38,775 bases of DNA from Microbacteriaceae bacterium (GTDB lineage: Bacteria > Actinomycetota > Actinomycetes > Actinomycetales > Microbacteriaceae). The position numbers and the translations under genes were made by a program. Of the stretch, positions 6,707-21,457 are shown in pieces; position 1 is the stretch's first letter, and every line of letters begins with the position of its first letter. The notes below the pieces were generated by a model. The model saw nothing but the letters and a program-made list of their open reading frames with translations, searched no databases and was not told the DNA's origin. The stretch is taken from positions 1-38,775 of the forward strand of contig CANGDL010000014.1 in NCBI GenBank assembly GCA_947452675.1. The letters run 5' to 3'.

Positions 6707-6728
6707 TGTCTCAGGTTGCTAATAGTTT
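6707..6728 (+). promoter_or_regulatory. PafBC-type DNA-damage promoter
   Basis: The element reads AAA-TGTCTCAG, 8 bases, then TAGTTT. It matches the actinobacterial RecA-independent (PafBC) promoter pattern TGTCRGTG-N8-TAnnnT in the TGTC core, the spacing and the hexamer, but not in the RGTG half. It lies about 55 bases before the gene at 6785. It is one of seven sites in the window with the same layout. Confidence 0.6.
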
Positions 6729-6784
6729 GAAACTGTAGGCGGGCGCCTCAAAAGGGCAAGAAATCCGCTTGCAGATTGGCTCGC

Positions 6785-7156
6785 ATGGCAACCTATAAGT
6801 TCTCATTCGTCATAAAACCTCCGGTGGGAATCTCGACTACCAAACACATCGAGTTTGTTGAACGCGAAACCTGCATCGCGATCACTTGCGACTCAAGCGA
6901 TAGCGAGTGCACCCACCTTCTTGAACCCGAAAACAACGCGCGGTTTGTGAAGGCGCTAGGTGCGAAGGCAGAGACCTCCGTCTTGGATGCGGTTCGAGTG
7001 GCGGTCTCTCTAGGTCTCGAAGCTCTAGTTGACGCCCAGGTTCACGCAATCGTGAAGCCAGACTTCGTTTGGTATGACTATGACTCTCCTTTCTATGGCG
7101 ACGTTTATGTTGAAAGCATCAGCCAGCCCGATGGAACCTGGAAGCGGTTGAACTAA
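6785..7156 (+). CDS. Uncharacterised 123-residue protein
   Basis: I do not recognise the family. The ATG at 6785 is used; an in-frame TTG nine bases upstream is an alternative, and neither has a strong ribosome site. The protein is soluble, with no signal peptide or membrane segment. It has a cysteine cluster near residues 30-42 (ETCIAITCDSSDSEC) and an aromatic stretch near the end (DFVWYDYDSPFYGDVYVESI). A PafBC-type promoter lies just upstream, so it may be induced by DNA damage. It converges on the small zinc-finger gene; a short CTCTTT/AAAGAG hairpin at 7175-7190 sits between the two stops. Confidence 0.7.
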   Translation: MATYKFSFVIKPPVGISTTKHIEFVERETCIAITCDSSDSECTHLLEPENNARFVKALGAKAETSVLDAVRVAVSLGLEALVDAQVHAIVKPDFVWYDYDSPFYGDVYVESISQPDGTWKRLN

Positions 7157-7180
7157 CCCAGCGGTTCAAGCTACCTCTTT

Positions 7181-7372
7181 TTAGAAAGAGACCTCATCAA
7201 GCCCGAGTTCGCGATTGCAGTTGCGGCAGAAATACTTTGCGTCCTCGCCGATCTCAACGAGGCAACCACCGCTGTAGAAGCCAGGATCGTTGGATGCCTC
7301 TTCGGTTGGCAAACCATAGGTAACCGGCACAGCCGGGCCGAAGCATGTTTTGCAATGAATCATTGACTGCAT
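7181..7372 (-). CDS. Small zinc-ribbon-like protein, 63 residues
   Basis: The protein has two CxxC knuckles (C7/C10 and C49/C52) about 39 residues apart, the layout of a treble-clef or rubredoxin-like zinc site, so it probably binds zinc. The start at 7372 is supported by AAGGAAGG six bases upstream; an in-frame ATG three codons later is possible. No enzymatic motif is visible. It is a single gene on the minus strand, convergent with the 123-residue gene. Its own promoter region overlaps the palindrome at 7416-7432. Confidence 0.65.
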   Translation of the reverse strand: MQSMIHCKTCFGPAVPVTYGLPTEEASNDPGFYSGGCLVEIGEDAKYFCRNCNRELGLDEVSF

Positions 7373-7415
7373 TTAACTGCCTTCCTTAGATGTAATGAGA
7401 CTTTAGAACACCCCT

Positions 7416-7432
7416 CAGACATTAAATGTCTG
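7416..7432. promoter_or_regulatory. Perfect 8-bp palindrome, candidate operator
   Basis: CAGACATT and AATGTCTG are perfect inverted repeats around a single A. The right half is the upstream part of the PafBC-type promoter at 7427-7448. The left half would place an inverted AATGTCTG toward the divergent small zinc-ribbon gene. The site could bind a dimeric regulator or serve both directions. Confidence 0.5.
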
Positions 7433-7448
7433 GCCCTATCCGTAAGTT
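7427..7448 (+). promoter_or_regulatory. PafBC-type DNA-damage promoter of the nuclease operon
   Basis: AAA-TGTCTGGC, 8 bases, then TAAGTT. The spacing and the TAnnnT hexamer fit the PafBC pattern. Transcription would begin near 7455, directly at the first stem of the structured leader, and run into the genes at 7609, 7738 and 9385. Confidence 0.65.
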
Positions 7449-7455
7449 ATTTCTC

Positions 7456-7591
7456 GAGTCAGTTTTCTTCGTCGTTTACTGACTCATCCGCCATCGATGG
7501 CAAGCCTGCATGTCCCGCAGGCCCGGCACGGGGGATGCCGAAGGGTGGCCCTGGTTCTTTGTCCTTTGAACCAGGGTCATTCCTCCCCACC
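7456..7591 (+). promoter_or_regulatory. Highly structured 5' leader (possible new RNA element)
   Basis: Five consecutive inverted repeats fill the leader. GAGTCAGT/ACTGACTC is at 7456-7463 and 7478-7485. The palindrome GCCATCGATGGC is at 7490-7501. GCCTGC/GCAGGC is at 7504-7509 and 7517-7522. CGGCA/TGCCG is at 7524-7540. CCCTGGTTC/GAACCAGGG is at 7549-7557 and 7568-7576; this last hairpin is enclosed by GGTGG/CCACC (7544-7548, 7587-7591). There is no T-tract, so this is not a plain terminator. I could not match it to a known riboswitch. It lies between a PafBC-type promoter and a ribosome site (GAGAGG) for a 36-residue ORF. Confidence 0.55.
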
Positions 7592-7608
7592 AACTTCGAG
7601 AGGCCCAG

Positions 7609-7719
7609 ATGCACGAGCTAGATTTTGCAATCAAGGATGGCGACTTAGTCGCCTTCAATGAGTGGGTTGATGCGGTTCTAAACATCCCATCGGTCGCCAA
7701 GCGCCCGTCTGTAGACTGA
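7609..7719 (+). CDS. Small 36-residue protein or leader peptide
   Basis: The ATG at 7609 is preceded by GAGAGG with five bases of spacing, a proper ribosome site. The frame runs 36 codons to TGA at 7717-7719 and ends 18 bases before the nuclease start. The product is acidic and soluble (MHELDFAIKDGDLVAFNEW...), with no membrane segment. It may be a genuine microprotein, a coupling leader for the nuclease gene, or chance. The strong ribosome site and position in the same transcript favour translation. Confidence 0.5.
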   Translation: MHELDFAIKDGDLVAFNEWVDAVLNIPSVAKRPSVD

Positions 7720-7737
7720 GGCTCTTAGGGGGAACAG

Positions 7738-9378
7738 ATGCGCGTCGACAAAACTGGAAACTGGGCGATAGCCAGCCGAGACCTGTTCAAGGCAACCGGC
7801 TGTGAGCAGTGTGTTCGTTTGTCGATGGCGATCAAGGCGAATGTGCCTGAGGTAGTCGCAAAGGTCAAGCCTTACGAGGATGATCTCAACACGAAACTTC
7901 CGATCATCCAAGGTAATCAGCGTGAGCGGATGGTCTTTGACCAGATAAAATCGAGCCTGCCCGCTGGTGATTTTGTCGAATTCGAACGAGCGACTGCCGA
8001 TGAAACTGTCTCGGCTCTGAAAAACTCGACGCCTGTAGTTGCCCAGGGCTACTTCGAACGAGAGCTTGGAGGGTACTTCTGGTCAGGCTACGCCGACTTG
8101 TTGGTGCTCGAAGGTTTTGAGATTCGCCAACGAGATGATGGAAAAGTGGCCGCGTTGCAGGTCGGGCAGATTCCAGATCAGCCGAAATACATGGCCTGGG
8201 ATGTCAAAAACTCATCTCAGGGTGATGAGAAGTACCAGGTTCAGCTAGCGACTTACCTAGAGGCACTTCAAGAACTTGGTTTGGCTTCAGAACATGATCT
8301 CGGCATAGTCCTTGGATTCGGTCGCGGAACCGTCCGTTACTCCCCGGATGAATCCCTCGAAGTTTATCGAACGGCTCGGGCAAAACTGGTCTCAATTTTG
8401 AACCAAACTTCTCCAGCCACCATCACCGCCGACTTCGTCAGCAGTTGGGCGTGCGCCAAAGAGTCAGTCTGTGGCAAGGTTTACTGCGACTATCCAAAAC
8501 TTTGCGAGGCCACCTTTGAGGAAAACCACGTCTTAGAGCTATTGCCGAGCGTGCATTACAAGCACAGCCCGAAGCTACTCGAAGCCGGCTTCACCGATGT
8601 TACCAAGCTGGCAAGTTGCGAGTCGGCTCCTGAGGTGCCGGGCCTCAAGGCCGAGTATTCGGATCGTTACTGGAAAGCCGCCAAGGTCATGCAGCTTGAG
8701 TTCGACGGCCACCTGGCCCTGATCTCGAAGATCGATGGAACCCCAGACCTGCCTGAGCCGACCGACCAAGATGTGTTCTTCGATGTCGAGTGGACTAATC
8801 CAGTTGATGCAATCGGTGAGTTCATCTTCATGTTTGGTGTCGTTGGTGCGGATGAGAAGTTCGAAGTTTTCATCGCTGATTCCCCTGATGATGAACTGCG
8901 TGCCTTTGACGAGTTTCTCGACTTTGGAATCGCTCGGCTAAACGCCAACCCCGAGATGCATATCTACCACTTTCACAATCCCGAGCCACTGAAAGTCAAT
9001 AAGCTGGTCGAGCGCTACAACGGCCACCGAAAGGCAGACGCCGATGCCCTCATTGCGCGCATGTTTGACCTGAAGCCGGTCGCAAATGACTCATTCATTC
9101 CAGGCTCTGGCAGCTACAGCATCAAAGACCTCGAGCGCTATTACGATGCCGACACCAAGCTAAACCGAGGTGGCCTAGTTGCTGGTGGTGCTGATGCCAT
9201 GCTTCAGTTCGAGCTGTTCCGCCAAGCCATGGTGGCCGGTGATGTAACCGAAGCCGCAACAATCATGCAGGTAATCGCCGATTACAACAAGGATGATTGC
9301 CTCTCAACCAAACTGCTTCGAGACTGGCTCCTCAGCCTCCATTTCGAACACATCGATCAGATTATTCAGTGGGGATAA
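7738..9378 (+). CDS. TM0106-type RecB-like nuclease with RNase H-like domain
   Basis: This 546-residue protein resembles the TM0106 family of putative RecB-like nucleases. The N-terminal half is a PD-(D/E)XK domain: GYADLLV (D120), WDVK (D155, K157) and QVQLATY. The cysteines C22, C25 and C239/C245/C250/C256 could hold an iron-sulfur cluster as in Cas4/AddB-type enzymes. The C-terminal half looks like an RNase H-like exonuclease, with FFDVEW (D349, E351) and a terminal YNKDDC (about 516-521). Many family members continue into a superfamily 1 helicase; this one stops after the nuclease part. ATG 7738 follows AGGGGGA. A PafBC-type promoter and structured leader precede it, and the next gene follows by 6 bases. 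A role in DNA repair or end processing is inferred. Confidence 0.8.
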   Translation: MRVDKTGNWAIASRDLFKATGCEQCVRLSMAIKANVPEVVAKVKPYEDDLNTKLPIIQGNQRERMVFDQIKSSLPAGDFVEFERATADETVSALKNSTPVVAQGYFERELGGYFWSGYADLLVLEGFEIRQRDDGKVAALQVGQIPDQPKYMAWDVKNSSQGDEKYQVQLATYLEALQELGLASEHDLGIVLGFGRGTVRYSPDESLEVYRTARAKLVSILNQTSPATITADFVSSWACAKESVCGKVYCDYPKLCEATFEENHVLELLPSVHYKHSPKLLEAGFTDVTKLASCESAPEVPGLKAEYSDRYWKAAKVMQLEFDGHLALISKIDGTPDLPEPTDQDVFFDVEWTNPVDAIGEFIFMFGVVGADEKFEVFIADSPDDELRAFDEFLDFGIARLNANPEMHIYHFHNPEPLKVNKLVERYNGHRKADADALIARMFDLKPVANDSFIPGSGSYSIKDLERYYDADTKLNRGGLVAGGADAMLQFELFRQAMVAGDVTEAATIMQVIADYNKDDCLSTKLLRDWLLSLHFEHIDQIIQWG

Positions 9379-9384
9379 GTCACT

Positions 9385-10164
9385 ATGCAACCAACCGGCA
9401 AGCTCGAAGAAGTGAAGCAAAACAGAGCCACGTTAATTGAAGACATCGAAACGTTCTTCGAGGCCGATCATTTCTTGCGCGAGCCAAAGCTACTGCAGAT
9501 GATTGACGAATGCGTTCCCTACGAGGCAATCATGAGATACCTGTGGGTCACACATGAAGATGAGCCTGACCGAGGTGTCGAAATGGTGGAAGACGAGGGT
9601 CAAGATTTCGAGAATCTTGATTCCAATGAAATTACATATCATCTCGAACTCGCCATTGAAATAAGCAGGCACCCAGACGATGCACCTCAGCCTGGTGATG
9701 ACGTTTTTCAATGGATGCAGCGCGAATTCAATTCGATGCTTGATCTTGAAGACCCAACTCCAGAGCAACTTGACGTCTGGCAAGACTTAAAGGATGAAAT
9801 TGAGGAACTCGACGACGCAAGGCATGAGCCAACCGATGCCTTTCTGGCCCGCGAGTGGGGTTTCCACATCGGTAGGTCGATGGTTATTTACTGGTCGCCA
9901 GTCGCTCCCCACATTGCAACGCATCCCAGAGATAAAAAATCAGAAAAGTGGGCAGACGAGGTTCTAGAGGCCATGGAGAAGCTCGGCGGCTTACAACTCG
10001 GGATGGCGAGCTTCATACTTACTTCGAGCGACCCGAACGGCGTCTACTACCATGTTCGAAAGGCCTACCCCGAGGCAGTCCCGTTTGGCACCGAAAATGG
10101 CCGTGCACCAAGCGATCAAGACATCAGTTACAAAACACCCGAGGGCGACTACTTCATCAACTAA
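9385..10164 (+). CDS. Uncharacterised acidic protein
   Basis: This 259-residue protein is strongly acidic in its middle (EDEGQDFENLD, DLKDEIEELDD) and soluble. I recognise no domain or catalytic motif. It follows the TM0106-type nuclease by 6 bases and probably shares its DNA-damage promoter, so it could be a partner or inhibitor of that nuclease. It converges on the NYN gene with a 20-base gap. Confidence 0.7.
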   Translation: MQPTGKLEEVKQNRATLIEDIETFFEADHFLREPKLLQMIDECVPYEAIMRYLWVTHEDEPDRGVEMVEDEGQDFENLDSNEITYHLELAIEISRHPDDAPQPGDDVFQWMQREFNSMLDLEDPTPEQLDVWQDLKDEIEELDDARHEPTDAFLAREWGFHIGRSMVIYWSPVAPHIATHPRDKKSEKWADEVLEAMEKLGGLQLGMASFILTSSDPNGVYYHVRKAYPEAVPFGTENGRAPSDQDISYKTPEGDYFIN

Positions 10165-10184
10165 CGTGCGAAGTCGCCCAGCGG

Positions 10185-10658
10185 CTAGGCGGCCAAAGCG
10201 TGGCTGACCTGCAAGTAATGCATGGCGTCGGTCGCTAGTCGCATCGCGTATGAGACCGATTCAAGTCGCGAAACCGCGACCACGTGAGCGCCCTTTGAAG
10301 TCAGTGAGCTAGCGAAAGGTGCGAGACCTGCATCACCCGACGCAAGGTAGACATTTTCAAAACGATCAGACAAATCATCTTCGACCATCATCTTCGCCAG
10401 CACTATGTCAGCACCATCCTTACCCGAGCGGAAGCCGTGAAAACCGCCAGGCCATCCAAATGAGACAGCCTCGATGTTGTGGTGTGAAGAGGCGATAACG
10501 AAAAGGTCTTCGTCACTAGGTTGAATCTGGTCGAGATAGGCAGCTCGAACTTCAGCGACTAATTCGAAAGTCAGGTCACCGGTTCGGCAAAGATTCTCGA
10601 TGTCAATTAGGTGAATGCTGCGCTTAGTTTTGATGCCCTTGATGGTTTTCTTGTTCAT
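10185..10658 (-). CDS. NYN-domain (PIN-like) putative ribonuclease
   Basis: This 157-residue protein is a single NYN/PIN-like domain. Acidic positions expected of the metal site are present: D19 in HLIDIENL (with N22), D81 and D84 in GKDGADIVLAKMM, and D109 in YLASGDAG. The order (DxEN, then DGADIVL, then SGD with a following hydrophobic strand HVVAVSR) is typical. NYN proteins cleave RNA; the target here is unknown. A short basic N-terminal extension (KKTIKGIKTKR) may bind nucleic acid. It has its own PafBC-type promoter at 10698-10719, so it is probably DNA-damage inducible and transcribed apart from the genes upstream. Confidence 0.8.
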   Translation of the reverse strand: MNKKTIKGIKTKRSIHLIDIENLCRTGDLTFELVAEVRAAYLDQIQPSDEDLFVIASSHHNIEAVSFGWPGGFHGFRSGKDGADIVLAKMMVEDDLSDRFENVYLASGDAGLAPFASSLTSKGAHVVAVSRLESVSYAMRLATDAMHYLQVSHALAA

Positions 10659-10697
10659 TTGGTGCCCTTTCTGTCGACTCGAAACTGTTGTGGACTA

Positions 10698-10719
10698 AAG
10701 GTAAGACTGAGGTCAGACA
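10698..10719 (-). promoter_or_regulatory. PafBC-type DNA-damage promoter of the NYN gene
   Basis: On the minus strand: AAA-TGTCTGAC, 8 bases, then TACCTT, a good fit to TGTCRGTG-N8-TAnnnT. It begins directly after the stop of the upstream gene (10721) and lies about 40 bases before the NYN start. Confidence 0.65.
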
Positions 10720-10720
10720 T

Positions 10721-11281
10721 TTATTGAGCTTCTAAGCACTTGTGCGACTTGCGAATGGCCTTCAAGCCGATGAGCGACACCTTGCCATCGGCAGTTGGAA
10801 TCGTCGCTCCGATGTCGCCGCAGTTCTCGCACCAATAATGTAGGCGCAAACCCTCAGCCTTAGATCTATAAACCTTGACTACGAAAACGTTTACCCGTGT
10901 CCGCGTAGCGGTTTGAATGTGACCTTTTGATTGCAGAAGAATCGCATCTACATCAGATTGCCCTTTTGGTTTAGTCGCGACTAATGCGCACGAGCAAACA
11001 ACCGCATCCAGCGTGAGAAATGCGGTCGAGTGTATCTCTTGTTTCTGTTGCACGAGGTAGTCACTAAAACTCCCTGACCTGCGGATTCTCATGTAGTTGC
11101 TCCAAGCAACCGCGAAACCTTTATTGGTCACTTGCTCGTCTGTGATGTCATCCAGGGTTAGACGTTTTCGGTAGGCCTGTGCCGTTTCGTAAGCGTTCAA
11201 AACCGTTTCGTCGTATTCGAAATCTTCAGATGTGTTCGACACGATGGTCCTTTCTGTGACCGCGCTCAGCTCAATGCTCAT
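10721..11281 (-). CDS. Uncharacterised 186-residue protein
   Basis: I do not recognise the family. The C-terminal part contains a CxxC knuckle (WCENCGD, about residue 155) and a late cysteine (SHKC), which could form a zinc site. The N-terminal third is helical and charged. The gene starts 3 bases after the stop of the N-formylglutamate amidohydrolase-like gene, so the two are probably translated from one mRNA under the SAM-type riboswitch. Confidence 0.7.
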   Translation of the reverse strand: MSIELSAVTERTIVSNTSEDFEYDETVLNAYETAQAYRKRLTLDDITDEQVTNKGFAVAWSNYMRIRRSGSFSDYLVQQKQEIHSTAFLTLDAVVCSCALVATKPKGQSDVDAILLQSKGHIQTATRTRVNVFVVKVYRSKAEGLRLHYWCENCGDIGATIPTADGKVSLIGLKAIRKSHKCLEAQ

Positions 11282-11284
11282 GAG

Positions 11285-12304
11285 CTAGATAGAAATTCGC
11301 TGAGGGATAACTTCTGGTTCGATGTCTTCGTATTTGCCAGCCTCGACCGCCGCACGGTATTTTTCCAGCAGGATGTCGAAGTAATCGTAGAGTTCGCTTT
11401 CCATGTCGCTCGAAATGGCTCGCCACTGGTCATTGCGAAAGTCACGATCACACTCGACCTCGAATTGGTCTCGATCAAAGTAAAGATCAATCGTGGGCTG
11501 GGGAGACAGGCGGTCGACAAGGTTGGTTATGGCGGCCGTTGTTTGAACGAATCCTTCAGATGTCGGGTCACCAAATCCGTAGGTGTCTTTCCTTAGCTCC
11601 AACATGATCGACTCAATGTTGGAGTTTTGCTCATAGAAAGGCAACGGCACATAACTTCCGCTGAATGGAGTGTTCTTTGCTACCGAGGTAAAGTCTTCGA
11701 ATTGCGACTCAACCTCAATAATCAGGTTGCTCGAAGTGTGACTACGATCAGTGCCAACACATAGCCCCGGGCGGCTGGACTCTTGATGCAATTCATAAGG
11801 CAAGGCATCAACCGCGTAAGAGTGAAGGTCGATGATGGTCACCGACTTGTTTCGAATAAAAATTTCGCTGGTTAGGGCGGCAAACGCATCTGAGTACGGC
11901 TGGTGGTAGCTCTCAAGGAGGCGATTAGATAGCTCTTCGTCCACGGTGCGCAATAGGCGCTGGTCGGATGTCTTCTCGTAGGCGAAGCCCATACCAACCG
12001 CATTCATCTCCTCGCTCGCATCGGTGAACCTTTCTGGGTCAACCACCAGGCGCGAAAGGTTATTTATGAACACCCATGGCTTCATCTCTGCGTCTTCGTA
12101 AACTTTGCGGGCCAACTCATCAGTGCTGACGTCTGCCATGAGTACCGCTTCGGCTTCGAGCTCGGCCCCTTGCAGAGTGAAGGTCGGCATCTCTTTTTCT
12201 GGGATGTGCAGGCCGGCATGAGGAACGTGAATAATCACGCGTGATTGCCAGTCGCCTTCTAGAACAGTGAACTGCTCAGTTGAGCGGGTTAATTTTTTAG
12301 GCAT
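11285..12304 (-). CDS. N-formylglutamate amidohydrolase-like protein
   Basis: This 339-residue protein resembles the FGase family (N-formylglutamate deformylases and relatives, zinc-dependent amidohydrolases with a carboxypeptidase-like fold). Visible blocks are IIHVPHAG (residues 24-31, metal-binding His), LMADVSTDEL, NNLSRLVVDPERF, TIIDLHSY, and NTPFSGSYVP...IMLELRK. ATG 12304 is preceded by GAGAGGGG at proper distance; the frame is open further upstream, but that part lies inside the riboswitch and terminator. No other histidine-degradation genes are nearby, so hydrolysis of N-formylglutamate is uncertain. The related gene set also includes unknown amidohydrolases. Control by a SAM-sensing leader is unusual for this family. 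Confidence 0.75.
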   Translation of the reverse strand: MPKKLTRSTEQFTVLEGDWQSRVIIHVPHAGLHIPEKEMPTFTLQGAELEAEAVLMADVSTDELARKVYEDAEMKPWVFINNLSRLVVDPERFTDASEEMNAVGMGFAYEKTSDQRLLRTVDEELSNRLLESYHQPYSDAFAALTSEIFIRNKSVTIIDLHSYAVDALPYELHQESSRPGLCVGTDRSHTSSNLIIEVESQFEDFTSVAKNTPFSGSYVPLPFYEQNSNIESIMLELRKDTYGFGDPTSEGFVQTTAAITNLVDRLSPQPTIDLYFDRDQFEVECDRDFRNDQWRAISSDMESELYDYFDILLEKYRAAVEAGKYEDIEPEVIPQRISI

Positions 12305-12321
12305 GTTGCCCCTCTCCGGGG

Positions 12322-12352
12322 CAAAGAAAAAGCCCCGATAAGTCGGGGCTTT
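12322..12352 (-). terminator. Rho-independent terminator of the riboswitch leader
   Basis: On the minus strand AGCCCCGA and TCGGGGCT pair around a short loop, extended by AAA/TTT, and are followed by TTTTTCTTT. It sits between the aptamer and the start of the amidohydrolase-like gene. Immediately downstream a second small hairpin (GCCCC/GGGGC) would cover the ribosome site. Confidence 0.75.
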
Positions 12353-12469
12353 GTGCCCCATCTTGCCTTTGACTTTTGTCAAAGGCCACATCTTCTTCCG
12401 GGGGCACCCACCGATGGGAGGGTTGCCGTTCAGCTAGCCGGAAGGCTTAGTGCTGAACTCTTGATGCAC
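12353..12469 (-). promoter_or_regulatory. SAM-I/IV-type riboswitch
   Basis: Read on the minus strand, the aptamer has a P1 helix (GTGCATC at 12463-12469 with GATGTGG at 12386-12392), then AAGAG. The P2 stem GTTCAGC/GCTGAAC carries an inner AGCC/GGCT hairpin. GGCAACCC and GGGTGCC form P3, followed by CCCGGAAGA. This order of AAGAG, GGCAACC and GGTGCC is the SAM-I family core, and the CGGCAACCCTCC...GGTGGGTGCCCC wording is that of actinobacterial SAM-IV and SAM-I/IV RNAs. A 9-bp hairpin (12365-12386) and GTGCCCC/GGGGCAC pairing (12400-12407 with 12353-12359) could act as anti-terminator. SAM binding would then favour the terminator downstream. Confidence 0.75.
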
Positions 12470-12510
12470 TTGAAACTCTACACCTCAAAATTTTCGCGAT
12501 GCAAGCTTTT

Positions 12511-12708: not shown

Positions 12709-12740
12709 TTCCATCCCCTTGCACTTTCCTTGATTTTGAA

Positions 12741-12762: not shown

Positions 12763-12788
12763 TCTTGAGTTGGTTAGCAGGTAAATGA

Positions 12789-15022: not shown

Positions 15023-15063
15023 TGTGACTCCCCCCTAACTTTCAACGATACTCGCAACATAAA

Positions 15064-15085
15064 TGTCCGACCCCTCTGAGATGAT
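15064..15085 (+). promoter_or_regulatory. PafBC-type DNA-damage promoter of the TPR gene
   Basis: AAA-TGTCCGAC, 8 bases, then GATGAT. The core, the spacing and the A2/T6 positions fit; the first hexamer base is G instead of T. The start codon of the TPR gene is 26 bases downstream. The 5' end of the mRNA would contain CTCAG and AGAGGGG repeats able to pair with sequences just upstream. Confidence 0.5.
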
Positions 15086-15111: not shown

Positions 15112-16500
15112 ATGTCACACTTAGACGATGAAGACGAAGAACTAAAGGAGCACGAGGAGCGCGACGAGGCTCTAATCGCGGGGTCAGACCTACAGAAGCG
15201 CGGCGAGGCGCTGCACTGCAAGTCTCGCCGAATCGGCAACGACGACGAGCGCCAGCAAGAGGCGCTAACTTACGCCGAAGCTGCGACCGAGATTTTCCGC
15301 AACCTCAAAAGCAAGCCTGACCTAGTCGAGGCTCTTTGGGCCGTGGCCGACCCGCTCTACTCGTTGAAACGCTTCGAAGAGGCGCGCACAATAAGCATCG
15401 AAGCCGCCGAACTCGCCGTCGAAACTCTCAACGACTCAGCCGCCGCCAAGCTTTATTACAACGCCGGTGGCTGCTCGTTCAATCTCGAGGAGTTCCAAAC
15501 TGGCGCCGAATTTTGCCTGAAATCCGTGCAGTTCTTTATGGCCGCCGATGAACGGATCGCGGCTGGCCGGGCCGGAATCTGGGCGGGCAAGAACTTTGCC
15601 GCCATCGACAACTTCGACGAGGCGCTCGGATGCATGCTCGACGCCATCAAGATCTTCGAAGAAGAAGGCTCGATGACTAAGCTGGCCGATGCCTCTCGCC
15701 TTCTGGCCAAGGTTTATCTGGCAATCGGAGACGCGCCGAAGGCTCGCCAAGTTCTCGATCGCGCTGAAGCTTGCCTCGAATTCGTCTTGGATCTTGAAGT
15801 CGCCGAAAAGATCAAATATTCGCGAGCCCGTTTATTGGCTCTAGAAGGTAAACACGCCCTGGCTGTTGAGGCATTCCAAGAACGGTACGAAGCGGCGATG
15901 GCGCTCAACAATCCAGATTTCAGCACCAAGGCAGCTTTTGGCCGAGCCCTTTCGCAACTTGAACTCGGGCAATATGAGCCGGCTGCAAAGACATTCCGCA
16001 ATCTTGCTCTCGCCCTCAAAGGTACTAAGAGCCCGATTACCTCGCTCGACGCCCTGCTGAAACTTCTCAAGTGCTGCGAGAAACAAGAAAACGTGCTCGA
16101 GCAAGAGCAGGTAATCAATCAGATCTTTGAGATTCCTGAAGCACTCGAGAACACCGCGCTGAGCAACCAGCTAAAACTGCATTTGGGCGTCATTCTCACT
16201 GGCACTCATGACACCACTCGAGGGCTGCAGATTCTCGAGGCCTTGCCTCGCTCTGTGTTCGAGGTCGGATCTGATGATTGGATGCAGCACGCGCTCGCTC
16301 TGCTTGACAACTATGAAGACCGTGGCCGTTTCAGCGAGTGTATTTTCTTGGCCAACGAACTGCTAGCGCTAGAAAACCTAGATGATTTCGAAGGCGTCGC
16401 CGAGATCGTTGCCACCATCAAGAACAAGGCTGTTGCGCACCTCAACCCAGCATCCGGCGAGGTTGCGAAGGTGCCGGACGAATCAGTCTTGTTCGTCTAG
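15112..16500 (+). CDS. TPR-repeat protein
   Basis: The 462-residue protein is almost wholly alpha-helical, with tandem tetratricopeptide-like repeats from about residue 45 to 400. Typical A-x3-Y/F helices are visible: AEAATEIFRNL, LVEALWAVADPLYSLKRFEEA, AAKLYYNAGGCSFNLEEF, ASRLLAKVYLAIGDAPKA. The N-terminus is very acidic. TPR proteins are scaffolds, and no enzyme domain is present. ATG 15112 follows GAGGGG. It has its own PafBC-type promoter. Its last 18 bases overlap the 3' end of the convergent NrtR-type gene, which ties the two genes physically and suggests it belongs to the same functional cluster. Confidence 0.8.
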   Translation: MSHLDDEDEELKEHEERDEALIAGSDLQKRGEALHCKSRRIGNDDERQQEALTYAEAATEIFRNLKSKPDLVEALWAVADPLYSLKRFEEARTISIEAAELAVETLNDSAAAKLYYNAGGCSFNLEEFQTGAEFCLKSVQFFMAADERIAAGRAGIWAGKNFAAIDNFDEALGCMLDAIKIFEEEGSMTKLADASRLLAKVYLAIGDAPKARQVLDRAEACLEFVLDLEVAEKIKYSRARLLALEGKHALAVEAFQERYEAAMALNNPDFSTKAAFGRALSQLELGQYEPAAKTFRNLALALKGTKSPITSLDALLKLLKCCEKQENVLEQEQVINQIFEIPEALENTALSNQLKLHLGVILTGTHDTTRGLQILEALPRSVFEVGSDDWMQHALALLDNYEDRGRFSECIFLANELLALENLDDFEGVAEIVATIKNKAVAHLNPASGEVAKVPDESVLFV

Positions 16501-17361
16501 GTTCAGGGTGCTGTTGAGAGTGTAGAGGGCTGCCGGCTTGCCCGGGCGGCTTGAGTCAACCTTGCCAATCGGCTCGAGAAAGCTGTCATCGCCAAGCATT
16601 TCGCGGCGGAAGGCATCGCGAGGCGTAACAGAACCGCGGGCAACATCCTGGAATTCCTGTAGGTCGCTTAGTCGGAACTCTTCACCCAGAGCCTTCACTC
16701 CCAAGAAGCGGAAAGGGTCAAGCTGGCCCTTGAACGCATAGCGAAGCTTGCGCCAGGCATAAAAGACCATGTCATCGTGATCAAGGCCGAGAATGCTGCG
16801 TCCAGAAACCTCGACACTTGAAAGGCGCTTGTGACCTCGGGTTCGATTAGGCATCAAACGGAGGCCGAATCGGGAGATTCCGTCGAACTCCTGCATGCCA
16901 CCATGCTCTTCTGCGTAGGCAGTCATGAAGGCTTTCGAGTTAACCAGTTCAAGCCCAACCTCATCGCGGCCACCCAAGACCTTGCGAAGATCGTTGAAGG
17001 CCACGAAACCCCAATAGCTGAATGAGAGTGCGCGTTCATTCGGGTTGCGGCCCGGCTGGTCATAGAAACCGGCATCGCGCAGGCGAACCCGAGCACGAAT
17101 ACCCAAATCTTCGCGAACGATTCGTTGAGCTGCTTCTTCTACTCGCTCGTTTGGGCCGATTGCCGACCCAGGCAAAGAACGCCCGAATTCGCTTGCTTTG
17201 GTAACAACCAATAGCGAGAGGCCAGTTTCGTCGCTTCGCAGCAAGGATGCCGGCTCAACCAACGAGTCATTCCAGAAACCACTCTTGAGTGTGCGCTCAT
17301 CAACCACAGTGAAGAGCACGACATCGACGTTTAGCGTCGGGCGAATCTCATTGTCTGACAT
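16483..17361 (-). CDS. NrtR-type regulator (Nudix sensor plus winged helix)
   Basis: This 292-residue protein has an N-terminal Nudix-like domain and a C-terminal winged helix. The Nudix box (GPNERVEEAAQRIVREDLG) lacks the full REUxEE catalytic pattern, as in NrtR regulators that sense ADP-ribose or NAD intermediates instead of cleaving them. The C-terminus carries the family's typical order FRLSDLQEFQDVARGS, RDAFRREML, then RPGKPAALYTLN. ATG 17361 is chosen over a TTG six bases upstream. It is divergent from the ARPP-1 operon across a 120-base gap and is the likely local repressor. This gene pairing (NrtR with ARPP-1, vWA and macrodomain) is known from genome-context studies of ADP-ribose metabolism. 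Confidence 0.8.
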   Translation of the reverse strand: MSDNEIRPTLNVDVVLFTVVDERTLKSGFWNDSLVEPASLLRSDETGLSLLVVTKASEFGRSLPGSAIGPNERVEEAAQRIVREDLGIRARVRLRDAGFYDQPGRNPNERALSFSYWGFVAFNDLRKVLGGRDEVGLELVNSKAFMTAYAEEHGGMQEFDGISRFGLRLMPNRTRGHKRLSSVEVSGRSILGLDHDDMVFYAWRKLRYAFKGQLDPFRFLGVKALGEEFRLSDLQEFQDVARGSVTPRDAFRREMLGDDSFLEPIGKVDSSRPGKPAALYTLNSTLNLDEQD

Positions 17362-17420
17362 GGCCAATAACCTCTTTCTAACTTGATTTTAGGACTATTT
17401 CACAAAACATCGGAATAAAA

Positions 17421-17442
17421 TGTCGACGGTTGCCCTTATGCT
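17421..17442 (+). promoter_or_regulatory. PafBC-type promoter of the ADP-ribose operon
   Basis: AAAA-TGTCGACG, 8 bases, then TATGCT. The TGTC core, the spacing and TAnnnT fit. It lies 40 bases before the ARPP-1 start, in the NrtR divergent region, so an NrtR operator may overlap it. The GTCGAC palindrome inside is a possible half-site. Confidence 0.55.
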
Positions 17443-17481
17443 ATTCTAATAAGAGCGAAATCGCACATAAAACAGGGGAGA

Positions 17482-18522
17482 ATGAATATGGACGCAAATA
17501 ACAACCAGGGATGGATCTCCGCCCTAACTAGTAACCTGCCACTGGCCGATGTTGTCACCGGCACTCCTGCCGTCACCCGAGCCACCACCTCAGCGGTACA
17601 CCAAACTGCAACCCAGTCCCCACGCGAAACCTTCGAAATGCCCAACCTTCACGTCGGCCGCGGTTACCGCTATGGAAACCTTGACTGGTATCCAATATGG
17701 AGCGACGCAGAGACCTCGAAGCGTGACTACATCACCGAGGCTGCCGGCGACACCATTCGCATCTCAGAGCTTGCCCAACCAAATGTCGGCTGGCTAGAAG
17801 TAACCAATACTGGAGCGAAAGACCTTGCCATTCTCGAGGGAACCTTCATCGAGGCAGGTTTCCAACACCGAGCACTCATCAAGACCGTGGTCATTGCCGC
17901 AGGCGAAACGCAGCAGGTGGCGGTCGTCTGCATCGAGCGCGGTCGTTGGGGTGGCGCTTATGGGCAGCAACTCGGCAACCGACGAGCTCCAGCAAAGGTA
18001 CGAAGCGCCATCCGTGGTCTTCGAAGCGGCGACCGCGGGGCGACTCAAGGTTCAGTTGATCAAGGGGAGGTTTGGTCACGAGTTGCCGAATACGGCCGCG
18101 ACCTAAACCGTGACAACCGAACCGAGTCGCTGGTCGAGATGCGCAAAGGTCTGGACGCCGAAGTCAAACTTCCGAAGGTTCGAGCTCTTGCCGGGCAGAT
18201 TGGCGTATTGATCGCTATTGGAGGGCACCCGATTGCAATCGAGGTGTTCGACCACCCGAAGACACTCGCCGAGCGCCTCGACTCAATCGTTGCTGGTTAC
18301 CTTCCAGACAGCGCGACCAGCACTTACCAGGCAACGCCCGGGTATCGCGTTCGAGCATTCGTCCAAAAGGCCGTTGCCAAGAAGCTTCAGGTCAATGAGC
18401 AGAGCTCCACGGCGAGCAACCGCCCAGATGCCCTGATCGCAACCCAGGCAAAAGTGCACAAGAACCGTTTGCTGCACATCTCAACGCTGAACGCCATGCA
18501 CGAGTTGGTGTTGGCCGCATAA
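17482..18522 (+). CDS. ARPP-1 family protein (ADP-ribose operon)
   Basis: This 346-residue protein resembles ARPP-1 (ARG and rhodanese-phosphatase-superfamily-associated protein 1). The recognisable core is the run VGWLEVTNTGAKDLAILEG, the segment FQHRALIKTVVIAAG, and VVCIERGRW at 148-156. The first 50 residues are low-complexity Thr/Ala/Gln and probably disordered. Genome-context work places ARPP-1 with macrodomains, NrtR, vWA and ADP-ribosylglycohydrolases in predicted ADP-ribose pathways; its reaction is unknown to me. ATG 17482 follows AGGGGAGA; an ATG two codons later is possible. It is the first gene of a five-gene plus-strand operon. Confidence 0.75.
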   Translation: MNMDANNNQGWISALTSNLPLADVVTGTPAVTRATTSAVHQTATQSPRETFEMPNLHVGRGYRYGNLDWYPIWSDAETSKRDYITEAAGDTIRISELAQPNVGWLEVTNTGAKDLAILEGTFIEAGFQHRALIKTVVIAAGETQQVAVVCIERGRWGGAYGQQLGNRRAPAKVRSAIRGLRSGDRGATQGSVDQGEVWSRVAEYGRDLNRDNRTESLVEMRKGLDAEVKLPKVRALAGQIGVLIAIGGHPIAIEVFDHPKTLAERLDSIVAGYLPDSATSTYQATPGYRVRAFVQKAVAKKLQVNEQSSTASNRPDALIATQAKVHKNRLLHISTLNAMHELVLAA

Positions 18523-18632
18523 TGCCGAAGCCGACGAGGCGCCCCGGTCACAGGAATCGCACCAAAACACACGAGCAACACACCATACGCTCCAGCAACA
18601 CCTAAAACTTCACCGCTCTGTAAGGAGAAACC

Positions 18633-19928
18633 ATGAACGTAAACATCAAGGCCGAACACGGCACAGTGAAGGTCGGTGAGAAAACCTCGCTAGGCCTAAT
18701 GATCGAACTCACCGCCCCAGTTGCTCCAGCAACCCAGGCAACTCAGCGCAGTCCAAAGGGCGTCATCTTTTGCATCGACAAGTCAGGCTCGATGGGAGGT
18801 GGTCGCCTCGACCTCGTCAAGAAGTCGGTGCTCGACCTCCTTGCACGGCTAAACCGCGAAGATTACTTCGGTGTGGTCGGCTTCGATGGCAATGTGACCA
18901 TAGAAGTTCCGGTCGGCAAGCTCGCTGACCTGAACCCGGATGAAACCCGCAAGGCCATCCAGCACATCAGCCTAGGTGGTAACACAAACCTCGAGCGTGG
19001 CTATCGTCACGCAATCGCCGAGGCTGCGAAGTTGCCAGAAGGCATCGAGAGCACTGTCATCTTGCTCTCAGATGGTCAGGCCAATTCGGGAGTTGCCGAC
19101 CCAGAGCAGCTGGCACAACTAGCAGCTGCCGCAACCGAACACCTGATCAGCACGTCAACACTTGGCATCGGTGAGGGTTATGACGAGAAGATTCTCGACG
19201 CACTTTCAATCTCAGGCCAAGGTAACCACTTCGCGGCCGTTCGCTTGGCCGAAGCCGTTGCAGGTCTCGAGGCCGAGTTTGACGGGCTACTTGCTCGCAC
19301 GATGGAAGACGTGAAGCTAGTCATCAAGTGTGGGGCAACGTTTGTCGGTGAAACCAAGATTCGCCCGGCTACCTTTTCCGATCACTTTGAAGCAGGCACT
19401 GGGCAGGCAATTGCCTCACTCGGCAACCTAACTTCAGGTGAAGAGAAGAACTTCGTGTTCGATCTGAACCTTGAAGCTCAGACCGAGGCGGGAGACAAAA
19501 ATCGCCTAGCTTTCACCGCAATCGTTAGCTACCGAGACCTTGTGGCCGGAACAACCGAGCTACTCGAGAAGACCTTCTATGTCGACGTGCTTTCGGCTGC
19601 TGAATACACCGAGCCAGCTCGCGACGAAGACATCCTTGCCGAACTGGTCGCCCTTCGTGCCGAAGATCGCAAAGAAGAGGCAGTCGAGCTCATGCGACGT
19701 GGAGACACAGAAGGTGCTCGCCGAATCATCGAGGCGCTTGGCCGTGACTTTGAAGAGATGATGAGTGACTATCTCAACCTGAGTGAGCGCCAGCGTGCTC
19801 GACTGGGTGGTTCATACGACGAACTCATAGTCATGCAGGCCATGGCACCAGAGGAGTTCGTGAAACGAGGTGTCGAAAGCGTGAACCGCGGCCGACGCTC
19901 AAAGACCGATGGAAGAAAGGGCCGATAA
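18633..19928 (+). CDS. vWA-domain protein with intact MIDAS
   Basis: This 431-residue protein has a von Willebrand A domain at about 43-215. All metal-site residues are present: DKSGS (D49, S51, S53), T118 in GGNTN, and D147 in LLSDGQ. A beta-sandwich-like region (about 225-330) and a charged helical end follow (AELVALRAEDRKEEAVELMRRGD). There is no signal peptide or membrane anchor, so it acts in the cytoplasm, unlike surface vWA proteins. ATG 18633 follows AAGGAG. It is in the ADP-ribose operon behind ARPP-1 and 2 bases before the next gene. vWA proteins of this type probably bring partners together through a metal ion. Confidence 0.85.
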   Translation: MNVNIKAEHGTVKVGEKTSLGLMIELTAPVAPATQATQRSPKGVIFCIDKSGSMGGGRLDLVKKSVLDLLARLNREDYFGVVGFDGNVTIEVPVGKLADLNPDETRKAIQHISLGGNTNLERGYRHAIAEAAKLPEGIESTVILLSDGQANSGVADPEQLAQLAAAATEHLISTSTLGIGEGYDEKILDALSISGQGNHFAAVRLAEAVAGLEAEFDGLLARTMEDVKLVIKCGATFVGETKIRPATFSDHFEAGTGQAIASLGNLTSGEEKNFVFDLNLEAQTEAGDKNRLAFTAIVSYRDLVAGTTELLEKTFYVDVLSAAEYTEPARDEDILAELVALRAEDRKEEAVELMRRGDTEGARRIIEALGRDFEEMMSDYLNLSERQRARLGGSYDELIVMQAMAPEEFVKRGVESVNRGRRSKTDGRKGR

Positions 19929-19930
19929 AT

Positions 19931-20314
19931 ATGTGGATTTTTACAGACACCGGATTCGTAAGTGCAGTGCTAAAACCGGAGCACGAAACCACCCTGACCG
20001 TTCGAGCACGTGACCGTCGCTCACTGGTCGAACTTGCCGAGCTAGCCGGGGCAGAAATTGCCCAGTCTCCTAAGGGTGACTACCCATACCGCATCTTCGT
20101 GGAAGATGCCGTGTTCGCCCAGTGGGTTGCTGCCCAGGCGATGAAGATCACCTACAGCAACTTCAAGTCTCGAGTTCACAAGACCCGCGGCTATGACTAC
20201 ACCCGCAGCCTGCATAACGTGTGGGCGGCAATGCTCGACACCGAGGATGAAGATGCCCGCACCAATCAACCCGTTTGGGTCGACTCATCAATAAATGTCG
20301 GTGGCAATAACTAA
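19931..20314 (+). CDS. Small MWIFT protein of ADP-ribose operons
   Basis: The 127-residue protein starts MWIFTDTGFVSAV and continues with LTVRARDRRSLVEL, DYPYRIFVEDAVFAQW, ITYSNFKSRV and a late LHNVWAAML. I recall similar small proteins beside macrodomain, ADP-ribosylglycohydrolase or NrtR genes in actinobacteria, but cannot name the family with certainty. It has an alpha/beta make-up with no membrane segment. It starts 2 bases after the vWA gene, so the two are coupled. Its final codons contain the internal promoter at 20296-20317. Confidence 0.75.
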   Translation: MWIFTDTGFVSAVLKPEHETTLTVRARDRRSLVELAELAGAEIAQSPKGDYPYRIFVEDAVFAQWVAAQAMKITYSNFKSRVHKTRGYDYTRSLHNVWAAMLDTEDEDARTNQPVWVDSSINVGGNN

Positions 20315-20317
20315 TCT
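20296..20317 (+). promoter_or_regulatory. PafBC-type promoter, full consensus match
   Basis: AAA-TGTCGGTG, 8 bases, then TAATCT. Every defined position after the first T of TTGTCRGTG-N8-TAnnnT is matched. It overlaps the stop codon of the 127-residue gene and lies about 25 bases before the start at 20342. The last two genes of the operon can thus be transcribed on their own. Confidence 0.75.
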
Positions 20318-20341
20318 GAAAGCCTAACGAGAGGGGTCCAC

Positions 20342-20845
20342 ATGTTGTTCTTTTATGAAGGCGAGTTCGTCGAAGTCATTCGCGAAAATGTCTATAAGTC
20401 AGTTCTGACTTTCTGCTCAAACAATGCCGAGCTGTTGGCCTCCATGACCAGCAAGTCTGGAACCATGGCCGAACCGGTTGAGCTGCATAACCAGAACCAC
20501 AAGTGGGCCCTCCACGTGCCAGACGATTGTTCTGTTGACATTCTCGAAGGCATTAGTTGGCGAGACATCGAGAAAGTTGATCGCATCACAGGCGAGCCAG
20601 CTGCCTATGCCTATGACTTCATTCGCGAGAGCGAAGCCAACAAAACAGAGGGAACCCGGTGGGGAGACTATGGCTATTGCTGGCCAGAAGAAATCGAACG
20701 CACCCGAGCGAGTCTATTTGAAGATGATGATCCTGCCGATGGTGAAGTTATCTTTGTTCCAATCTGGACTACCCCGAATGAACTAACCGGCGCCCCGCGC
20801 GAACCAATAAATGTTGAAGTGGAAGATGGAGACGAAGATGAGTAA
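20342..20845 (+). CDS. Uncharacterised acidic protein before the macrodomain gene
   Basis: The 167-residue protein has no motif I recognise. The N-terminus (MLFFYEGEFVEVI) looks like a beta-hairpin; the end is very acidic (VEVEDGDEDE). There is no signal peptide. ATG 20342 follows GAGAGGGG. It has its own PafBC-type promoter and its last 8 bases overlap the start of the macrodomain gene, so the two are translated together. It may be the partner, or the modified substrate, of the macrodomain protein; that is inference from context only. Confidence 0.7.
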   Translation: MLFFYEGEFVEVIRENVYKSVLTFCSNNAELLASMTSKSGTMAEPVELHNQNHKWALHVPDDCSVDILEGISWRDIEKVDRITGEPAAYAYDFIRESEANKTEGTRWGDYGYCWPEEIERTRASLFEDDDPADGEVIFVPIWTTPNELTGAPREPINVEVEDGDEDE

Positions 20846-21377
20846 CCACGTACGTCAGCCGGTAATCGAAGTAGTCGTCGGCGACATCACCAAATTCGCT
20901 GCCGACGTCATCGTCAACTCGGCCCACGAGTCTCTTGCGCCAGGCGGTGGAGTCTCAGGTGCGATTCACAAAGCCGCCGGCCCAGGCCTAGCGGCTGAGT
21001 GTGCCGAAATTGTCGAAACCCGTGGATGGCTAGAAGCCGGCCAGGTTGCAATCACCCAGGCCTATAACCTACATGCCAAGTTCGTCGTTCACGCAGTTGC
21101 GCCTCGATATAAGGAGCTCGGCCCAAGCTGCCACGTGCAACTGTCGATGGCCTACTGGCGAGCAATCGACGAAGCTGCGGAAGTTGGGGCTAGGTCAATC
21201 GTGTTCCCAAGCCTTGGGACAGGCATCTTCGGCTTTCCTGTCGGAGCAGCGCCTGTTTATGCATTGGACGGCATTCGCGCTGGTCTATCGTCCAACCCCT
21301 CGACCGAAAAGCTAACGATTTGCTGCTTCAGCGAGGCGGATGCTCAGTTTTATCGATCCGGATTCGAGGCTACGTAG
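20838..21377 (+). CDS. Macrodomain protein (ADP-ribose binding)
   Basis: This 179-residue protein is a single macrodomain. GDIT (15-18), VNSAHESLAPGGGVSGAIH (26-44) and the phosphate loop SLGTGIFGFP (125-134) are clear, so ADP-ribose binding is very likely. Two positions differ from MacroD/YmdB-type hydrolases: NAAN has become NSAH, and the catalytic Asp of GGVDGAIH is Ser40. It may therefore bind, or hydrolyse by another route as in other macro classes. ATG 20838 (with GGAG upstream) is preferred to a codon 27 bases earlier because it starts at the domain. It is the last gene of the ADP-ribose operon. Confidence 0.9.
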   Translation: MSNHVRQPVIEVVVGDITKFAADVIVNSAHESLAPGGGVSGAIHKAAGPGLAAECAEIVETRGWLEAGQVAITQAYNLHAKFVVHAVAPRYKELGPSCHVQLSMAYWRAIDEAAEVGARSIVFPSLGTGIFGFPVGAAPVYALDGIRAGLSSNPSTEKLTICCFSEADAQFYRSGFEAT

Positions 21378-21435
21378 CCAGCTCATTCGTCAACAAACCT
21401 TAGCCGGTTTCGCCGATTGCGAACGCGAGTCGAAA

Positions 21436-21457
21436 TGTCCGACCGCTGTGTCAAACT
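21436..21457 (+). promoter_or_regulatory. PafBC-type promoter of the coiled-coil nuclease gene
   Basis: AAA-TGTCCGAC, 8 bases, then CAAACT. The core, the spacing and the A2/T6 positions fit; the first hexamer base is C instead of T. It lies 33 bases before the start at 21491. Confidence 0.55.

Follow-up and report, generated by a model that had tools for sequence, protein, structure and literature searches.

Does the stretch of Microbacteriaceae DNA considered here (the window, 38,775 nucleotides in full) hold a group of genes answering one common signal, and would that signal be DNA damage? A sequence-only reading had proposed seven promoters of the PafBC type in it, all with AAATGTC at one fixed spacing, and a search of both strands for AAATGTC-N13-A-N3-T returned exactly seven matches (6704+, 7424+, 10722-, 15061+, 17418+, 20293+ and 21433+; the earlier figures had marked the T of TGTC, three bases in, for the plus-strand sites and the low end, 10698, of the minus-strand one). 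The expectation from 100 dinucleotide shuffles of the window is 0.35, the richest shuffle holding two matches and none of the 100 attaining seven. The distance from TGTC to the hexamer is 12 bases at every site, and the hexamer begins with T in five of the seven, as had been claimed; A2 and T6, present in all seven, are built into the search pattern. Six sites lie 24–56 nt ahead of a gene, counted from hexamer end to start codon, but the short gap that had been described for all of them does not hold for 7424+, which is followed by a 36-codon ORF after 160 nt and by the start of TM0106 after 289 nt.

The genome-wide scan that the same reading had recommended found 19 matches in 1,395,142 bases (28 contigs, 85% complete) and three for the reversed pattern, and seven of the 19 fall within the 2.8% of the genome that the window represents (Poisson P 1.4e-6). 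The 12 outside matches include sites ahead of recA, rmuC and gyrB; eight of them lie inside ORFs of at least 100 codons, and their number is near the rate obtained from the window shuffles, which speaks for a chance or composition artefact. For the window itself the counts refute that explanation, since they show a large excess over the shuffles, six sites placed just before start codons and a motif conserved before homologues across genomes, and we consider its probability practically nil.

An eighth site (7400–7424, minus; TAATGTC TGAG GGGTGTTC TAAAGT) diverges from 7424+ and overlaps it back to back. When AATGTC is combined with either of two -10 forms, a refined pattern picked after the window and its relatives had been viewed, eight matches are found in the window compared with 0.19 expected, with a maximum of one in 100 shuffles. 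Housekeeping-type -35 boxes are not found at the eight sites beyond chance level: the best match to TTGACA at 16–18 spacing is two to four of six bases, and at least four bases match at two of the eight sites, compared with 12% of random places. The RecA-NDp consensus, as excerpted from PMC5656591, is tTGTCRgtg-8 nt-TannnT, and a motif excerpted from PMC8151990 for Mtb is TGTC[GG/AG/AC]-N10-TA-N3-T. The agreement with the published consensus that had been proposed extends to TGTC, the spacing and, at five of the seven sites, TAnnnT, but not to RGTG, which follows TGTC at 20293 (GGTG) only, one site of the eight.

The motif is shared with recA, which, together with the presence of the regulator genes described below, supports a PafBC-type assignment on sequence grounds. 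The recA site of this genome (AAATGTC TGTG CCTGTTCG TAGTGT; G000:C18:15668) lies 33–34 nt before the ATG. Across 60 genomes of the genus there are 187 matches compared with 37 for the reversed pattern, and in 25 of 29 loci the motif precedes either recA or a gene lying about 900 nt further upstream, which we take, by eye, to be clgR, the remaining four loci having a site of neither kind. Because the box of this genome's recA is followed by TGTG and the recA sites of relatives likewise vary after TGTC, RGTG is not strict in this genus.

A matrix trained solely on 18 recA promoters from other genomes of the genus, scored on the window together with another 400 kb from this genome, ranks 20293 first (29.1), followed by recA itself (25.4), 6704 third (21.6) and 7424+ fifth (14.3); the minus-strand site at 7424 scores 9.7. 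Extended -10 promoters can work alone. One might then suppose that 20293, 6704, 7424 and perhaps 17418 and 10722- are the only PafBC promoters, the remaining sites, chiefly those with TGn, being look-alike ordinary promoters of the extended -10 kind. This weaker version, which overlaps with our preferred reading, draws on the scores of 10722- (10.5), 17418 (7.2) and 15061 (6.0), all within background, and on the absence of 21433 from the window's top 20. However, all eight sites share AATGTC, the spacing of 12 bases and, three bases past TGTC, a GG or CC step, while their other bases vary, and the TGn form recurs ahead of fused TM0106 genes and of ARPP-1 outside the genus. We regard this restriction to a subset of sites as doubtful.

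What would these promoters serve? The leftmost (6704–6728, +; AAATGTC TCAG GTTGCTAA TAGTTT) precedes a protein of about 123–126 aa (6785–7156, +; start at ATG 6785 or TTG 6776) with no match in Pfam or NCBIfam. The divergent minus-strand promoter at 7424 is followed after 27 nt by a 63-aa ORF with two CxxC pairs (7181–7372, minus). Its plus-strand counterpart (7424–7448; AAATGTC TGGC CCTATCCG TAAGTT) is separated from the 36-aa ORF and TM0106 by a structured leader (7455–7612, +; predicted fold -66.3 kcal/mol, z -3.3) that has no Rfam family at gathering score. The TM0106-family RecB-like nuclease (7738–9378, +; 546 aa; TIGR03491 129.6 bits over cut-off; RNase_H_2) is followed after 6 nt by a gene for a 259-aa protein (9385–10164, +; no family match in Pfam or NCBIfam), which by its spacing would belong to the same operon. 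The minus-strand promoter at 10698–10722 (AAATGTC TGAC CTCAGTCT TACCTT) faces an NYN-domain protein of 157 aa (10185–10658, minus; PF01936 27.6 bits, cut-off 24.2), and a promoter of the TGn form (15061–15085, +; AAATGTC CGAC CCCTCTGA GATGAT) precedes a 462-aa TPR protein (15112–16500, +; PF13424).

Further to the right, 17418–17442 (+; AAATGTC GACG GTTGCCCT TATGCT) leads into genes for the 346-aa ARPP-1 protein (17482–18522, +; PF20208 159.8 bits), a 431-aa vWA-domain protein (18633–19928, +; PF00092) and a 127-aa protein (19931–20314, +) that follows vWA in relatives too (identity 61% in G034, 55% in G007, 93% in G027). The window's best match, 20293–20317 (+; AAATGTC GGTG GCAATAAC TAATCT), lies ahead of a 167-aa protein (20342–20845, +; zero matches in Pfam and NCBIfam) and a macrodomain protein (20826–21377, +; PF01661 112.8 bits), the best PDB matches of the latter being the PARP14 macrodomain, an O-acetyl-ADP-ribose deacetylase and MacroD1. 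The last promoter, again of the TGn form (21433–21457, +; AAATGTC CGAC CGCTGTGT CAAACT), is retained in the close relative G027; the closeness of the sites in that genome is not counted as evidence because the inspected flank is identical as well. It precedes a 436-aa protein (21491–22801, +), earlier called a coiled-coil nuclease, a fold unsupported by Pfam (no match above cut-off), NCBIfam or PDB searches, and judging by orientation and spacing two further genes of 189 and 369 aa (22857–24510, +) may be read through from it.

In other genomes the motif also stands before homologues of four of these seven genes, each with exceptions. Of 14 related loci in actinobacteria, 13 have it before ARPP-1, and in a class-wide sample only four of 12 do; the other eight have none within 300 nt, L173 and L175 among them having been scanned at an insecure start. 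Relatives carry the motif before TM0106 in 16 of 22 cases (four of five relatives with the short form do not), before the NYN gene in three of five (no full match in G034 and G015) and before the gene of the 167-aa protein in three of five (none in G479 and G036); for these three genes such a match is expected by chance at 7.6% per 340 nt in the background of this genome. Such counts over related loci are not independent events, because the loci share ancestry. Among viral contigs, 32 stretches fit a pattern and none encodes an ARPP-1 relative.

The relatives also bear on the -10 element. Both window sites that lack T1 have TGn ahead of the hexamer, as do 19 of 23 T1-less sites in a first set from relatives, the other four having no TG. 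In a second set, that of the ARPP-1 loci, TGn stands before three of six T1-less sites, the other three lack it, and two of nine T1 sites have TG as well; with these exceptions we abandoned an absolute rule of T1 or TGn. We suggest that a missing T1 tends to be compensated by TGn before the hexamer or by the hexamer NATAAT.

Which regulator would read these sites? A single WYL pair is encoded in this genome, and by sequence it is PafB and PafC, matching the solved PafBC structure 6sj9 with E values of 1.1e-28 and 8e-24. Exactly two WYL matches are present in each of the 22 good genomes of the genus, and on this ground a second WYL regulator was rejected, the comparison with PafBC covering the pair of this genome. 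The SOS box is CGAAC-N4-GTTCG; the window has 22 matches with two mismatches compared with 20.85 expected and none with fewer, and with the count at chance a LexA regulon was dropped. ClgR or an unnamed activator might instead read the same box, the genes then answering another signal. Recognition of the M. smegmatis P1 promoter by ClgR has been reported (PMC5656591, as excerpted), and the motif lies upstream of the clgR-like gene in six of the 10 recA loci that have no proximal site. Against this, a TGTC box at a fixed 12 bases from the -10 with no -35 corresponds to the sigma adaptation described for PafBC in an excerpt of PMC11804915, and the WYL pair is found in all 22 good genomes, so that we consider control by ClgR or its like quite improbable.

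We therefore return to PafBC, and assign a probability of roughly 0.8 to the reading that the eight window sites are PafBC-activated promoters (RecA-NDp, or recA P1, type) for 12–15 genes. Its basis is the sequence and spacing of the boxes, their enrichment, the regulator genes, the motif shared with recA and the conservation before homologues; from these we infer binding, induction, a joint response, operon limits and gene functions. Single-stranded DNA binding by the PafBC WYL domains has been shown by others in M. smegmatis. Let us assume the same for this genome: upon damage, single-stranded DNA would bind these domains, PafBC would then occupy the TGTC box, centred near -26, and hold sigma-A domain 4, and because of this hold RNA polymerase would start at -10 promoters that have no -35 box. 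These -10 elements would usually be TAnnnT, T1-less sites relying on TGn or NATAAT. The seven promoters and 7424 minus would thereby switch on the family-less protein, the small CxxC protein, the TM0106 nuclease with the 259-aa protein, the NYN protein, the TPR protein, the ARPP-1–vWA–127-aa set, the 167-aa protein with the macrodomain protein, and the 436-aa protein. Since the eight start signals match, nuclease-family, ADP-ribose-related and other genes are probably switched on together by damage.

An ADP-ribose module had also been proposed for this region. The macrodomain, NUDIX/NrtR-like and ARPP-1 genes do stand together, but the 30 ORFs scanned with Pfam (E 0.01), out of 39 in the window with at least 120 aa, include no ADP-ribosyltransferase. 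The protein with NUDIX and NrtR winged-helix domains (16483–17367, minus; PF00293, PF21906) is a possible local regulator, and one could imagine that it controls the island through NAD or ADP-ribose, the TGTC boxes being incidental. Its gene diverges from ARPP-1 in this genome and likewise in G027, G034 and G017, and in L152/L153 inspection by eye shows a palindrome downstream of the TGTC promoter and ahead of ARPP-1. Such control, however, would account for a single operon out of the seven, recA shares the TGTC motif, and both controls could coexist. We find NrtR-like control of the whole island highly unlikely.

The kind of promoter is already known, as is a Streptomyces macrodomain gene under it: the excerpted account in PMC5087735 gives S. 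coelicolor SCO6735, of the ALC1/TARG1 group, a RecA-NDp promoter and five-fold induction by UV. The present macrodomain gene would likewise be under such a promoter, but by sequence its product scores best against MacroD-type and PARP14 macrodomains, the promoter precedes a 167-aa partner gene, and ARPP-1 and vWA genes adjoin. As in the mycobacterial and Streptomyces RecA-NDp/P1 systems, TGTC lies 12 bases from an A2/T6 hexamer with no -35, recA has the promoter, and PafB and PafC are encoded. Unlike that consensus, seven of the eight sites have AAA before TGTC, RGTG is mostly lost, a GG/CC step is present, TGn replaces T1 at some sites, and eight sites are packed in one accessory island. This dense use of PafBC promoters in an accessory island looks unusual and is the new part, although the recA P1 and SCO6735 precedents keep the surprise moderate. 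With it, the main response of actinobacteria to DNA damage would reach beyond chromosomal repair genes and take in such an island, the uncharacterised ARPP-1/vWA/macrodomain genes would gain a likely signal, and the -10 idea could sharpen prediction of the PafBC regulon outside mycobacteria.

Lastly, we consider the position of the island. In 19 purL-side stretches we found five sites in 299 kb compared with one for the reversed pattern and 0.74 predicted from the genus rate (178 matches in about 72–73 Mb, sizes rounded; P 0.001). The sample is 19 of 20 stretches (L140, of four bases, dropped), chosen on length, though after the genus site list was known, and excludes G034, G084 and G031, which had been picked for their sites. 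The hotspot is not site-rich everywhere, 14 of the 19 stretches being without a site. Only tentatively, and as one joint proposal that may well fail, PafBC might serve as a single-stranded DNA alarm for a changing island at the purL 3' end, where arriving nucleases, NYN, ARPP-1/vWA/macrodomain, methylase and TM0106 genes repeatedly bring or acquire PafBC promoters; damage, phage attack and restriction included, would trigger a programme of ADP-ribose and nucleic-acid clean-up or defence, with ARPP-1/vWA an old dedicated member in several actinobacterial families. PADLOC gave weak matches only for eight promoter-linked genes (6776, 9385 and 20342 excluded), namely Cas4 at 14.9 bits and GajA at 16 bits. 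Defence islands may be under WYL repressors of the BrxR/CapW type. The proposed WYL-family control near restriction-modification genes (24524–31144; a type IIG-like enzyme and a PLD-helicase) resembles them, but no WYL gene was found inside the window, the proposed regulator is a distant activator, PafBC, and no PafBC-type site lies ahead of the restriction genes. As a separate observation, the sole Rfam match at gathering score in the window is a SAM-IV riboswitch at 12354–12466 on the minus strand.

We consider it well supported, by comparison across genomes, that the sites described in the sequence-only reading between 6707 and 21457 are promoters of the PafBC type. That reading counted seven sites, each AAATGTC followed by 4 and then 8 bases and a hexamer with A2 and T6, and proposed that they make up one DNA-damage regulon; exactly seven matches were recovered in the window, against 0.35 expected and a maximum of 2 in 100 dinucleotide shuffles. 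The genome-wide scan that it proposed gave 19 matches in the source genome (1.395 Mb, 28 contigs, 85% complete), 7 of them in the window, which is the complete contig C14, and 3 for the reversed pattern. Eight of the 12 matches outside the window fall, by a mechanical test, within ORFs of at least 100 codons; one of these eight, the TGn-form match C5:27859 (contig:position), ends 6 nt upstream of the rmuC start and may be a genuine promoter. Of the other four, one precedes recA (C18:15668), one stands 116 nt before gyrB and one 6 nt before an M50 peptidase gene; the fourth is near a contig end.

The notion that each site stands shortly before a gene holds for six of the seven, at 24–56 nt from hexamer end to start codon: 6704+ (56 nt, unknown protein, ATG 6785), 10722- (39 nt, NYN), 15061+ (26 nt, TPR), 17418+ (39 nt, ARPP-1), 20293+ (24 nt, the 167-aa gene with the macrodomain) and 21433+ (33 nt, the 436-aa gene). 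It does not hold for 7424+, which is 160 nt from a 36-codon ORF and 289 nt from TM0106. An additional minus-strand site, TAATGTC TGAG GGGTGTTC TAAAGT, overlaps 7424+ back-to-back; 27 nt downstream of it begins an ORF of 63 residues that contains two CxxC pairs. This back-to-back arrangement of sites recurs in another genome (G014, locus L094). The candidate promoters would thus total eight and, judged from orientation and spacing, might serve 12–15 genes.

Across 60 genomes of the genus, AAATGTC-N12-TAnnnT occurs 187 times versus 37 for the reversed pattern (178 versus 37 without the source genome). Of 29 loci that include DNA upstream of recA, 19 have TGTC-N12-TAnnnT near the first possible recA start, from 250 nt upstream to 60 nt downstream; six of the remaining ten have AATGTC-N12-TAnnnT before a clgR-like gene ~900 nt upstream of recA, which by eye we take to be clgR, and four have neither. 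The window motif is probably the PafBC motif of the genus. Downstream genes, inspected at 30 loci out of the genus-wide matches, include recA, gyrB, a LysM protein (identified by scan in L031; L032 and L037 similar by eye), UvrD-type helicases (by scan in L055 and L057), a D12 adenine methylase and nucleases. The LysM gene presumably adjoins lexA, as Rv2719c/DivS does. In M. tuberculosis, the rv2719c operon next to lexA is described as being under PafBC control (PMC8151990). Several genomes of the genus have AAATGTC-N12-TAnnAT before gyrB (source genome C2:119257, L002; relatives L044 and L056); gyrB may be a member of the damage response, or the resemblance may stem from something else. At one locus (L039, G004:C13:10092), the motif stands 47 nt upstream of a gene resembling, by eye, a phage-type integrase, which would fit a damage-induced mobile element.

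The regulator itself is represented in the source genome by two WYL-domain matches in adjacent genes encoding 339 and 329 residues; next to them is a gene that we take to be tatC. This pair matches the solved PafBC structure 6sj9 (E 1.1e-28 and 8e-24), and also 7p5x and 9fnd. A hidden second WYL regulator is argued against by the finding that all 22 good genomes of the genus have exactly two WYL matches; such matches are present in 64 of 67 genus genomes, the comparison with PafBC covering the source genome's own pair. For M. smegmatis, sigma adaptation and activation of PafBC by ssDNA have been described (PMC11804915).

The same genes elsewhere often carry the motif. Among 19 ARPP-1 loci, 14 are actinobacterial with at least 300 nt upstream; TGTC-N12-NAnnnT is found in 13 of these, the strict form TAnnnT in seven, and L154 lacks any. 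Chance frequencies are ~3% per 400 nt (strict form, from nine of the ARPP-1 loci) and 7.6% per 340 nt (loose form, own genome). These 14 loci represent about seven lineages, because four (L145, L146, L148, L149) are contigs shared with another contig sample and several pairs look near-identical. Strict sites reach down to 30–31% protein identity (CACTGTC AGAG GCTACCTC TACAGT; TTCTGTC GGAC GGGTGCGC TATTGT); of two non-actinobacterial loci, L162 has a strict match and the other none. Class-wide, ARPP-1 occurs in 14 of 394 genomes, with the motif at 4 and absent at 8 of the 12 loci with 300 nt upstream, two of these eight (L173, L175) being scanned at an insecure start. Compared with 13/14 among relatives, this indicates that the link between motif and ARPP-1 is old, not universal. 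The motif also precedes NYN in 3/5 relatives (the G084 NYN match is split, with a reported in-frame stop), the 167-aa gene in 3/5 (the G036 site, ending TATAAA, narrowly misses the pattern) and TM0106 in 16/22, namely 15/17 long fused forms and 1/5 short forms, the form found in the window. G027 lacks both the 167-aa gene and its promoter but retains the neighbours.

The nearest ARPP-1 records are MAGs titled Microbacteriaceae, Micrococcales or Actinomycetota, for which isolate names let us guess at a freshwater origin. Records titled Bifidobacterium breve (L153, L155, L158, L159, L163) hold ARPP-1 resembling that of other environmental MAGs, and the titles may be mislabelled. By eye, L152 and L153 show a palindrome, TTAGCGCA...TGCGCTAA, downstream of the TGTC promoter and ahead of the ARPP-1 start; a NUDIX/NrtR-like regulator might use it as an operator.

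A matrix built from 18 recA promoters, all belonging to other genomes, was run on the window plus 400 kb from elsewhere in the own genome, and its scores speak against over-confidence in individual sites. It ranks 20293 (29.1) above own recA (25.4), 6704 (21.6), one background site (15.3) and 7424+ (14.3). As background places include 6 scoring at least 12 (own recA among them) and 19 scoring at least 10, sites 10722- (10.5), 7424- (9.7), 17418 (7.2) and 15061 (6.0) are inseparable from background by this matrix; 21433 falls outside the window's top 20.

Where the first T of the hexamer (T1) is missing, a TG one base upstream of the hexamer tends to be present. Sites before recA, ARPP-1, TM0106, NYN and 167-aa relatives comprise 26 with T1 without TG, 19 with TG without T1, 4 with neither and none with both (Fisher 5e-10, inflated by relatedness, fused TM0106 genes being most TG cases); in 400 kb of own-genome background, TG accompanies 7 of 165 T1-less matches. 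The ARPP-1 set is less clean: T1-less sites divide into 3/6 with TG and 3/6 NATAAT without it, and TG also occurs in 2/9 T1 sites. In the window, TG is present at both T1-less sites (15061 GATGAT, 21433 CAAACT) and absent from all six with T1. T1-or-TGn would thus be a tendency rather than a rule. At the sites, matches to a -35 do not exceed chance; a weak -10 may be helped by TGn or by a hexamer that is good in other respects, with PafBC taking the place of the -35.

The promoter kind is ordinary, PafBC/RecA-NDp promoters being already known; unusual are the genes that it would control and the density. Streptomyces SCO6735, a macrodomain gene with such a promoter, is described as 5-fold UV-induced (PMC5087735, PMC9411070). 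Best matches at title/abstract level in the open-licence literature gave no PafBC link to ARPP-1 or to such an island, which is weak evidence as subscription papers mostly lie outside it. ARPP-1, NUDIX/NrtR-like and macrodomain genes point to putative ADP-ribose handling; no ADP-ribosyltransferase was found among 30 scanned window proteins. NYN proteins form an RNase family and those of TM0106 a putative nuclease family; the nuclease label proposed for the 436-aa gene was not confirmed. The island genes may act in clean-up or defence after damage. Two relatives have a histone-deacetylase-family gene (PF00850; L089:11542-12534, L097:11431-12046) inside the ARPP-1/vWA cluster, perhaps an acetyl-ADP-ribose link; none was seen in the window.

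The window runs from an ion-channel gene (108-791) to purL (38212-38775), which is truncated where the contig stops; in G084 this pair encloses a different gene set with five sites in 4.4 kb. Short copies of the purL 3' end, 75–87% identical to the window's purL, lie inside the islands (window 37396-37548, minus; G006:C1:122919-123155; G084:C5:71419-71637; G027:C10:30708-30989), which suggests that elements may have inserted repeatedly at this end of purL, each bringing its own end. Nineteen purL-side stretches hold 5 sites in 299 kb versus 1 reversed; they are enriched for sites, though 14 of the 19 carry none.

After the 7424+ promoter, a leader at 7455-7612 (+) precedes the 36-codon ORF and TM0106, with an unusually stable fold of several hairpins (-66.3 kcal/mol, z -3.3) and no Rfam match; leader control or a small RNA is conceivable here. 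Elsewhere in the window, an N-formylglutamate amidohydrolase-like gene (11285-12391) has a SAM-IV riboswitch (12354-12466, minus, 80 bits) at its start, overlapping the listed ORF start.
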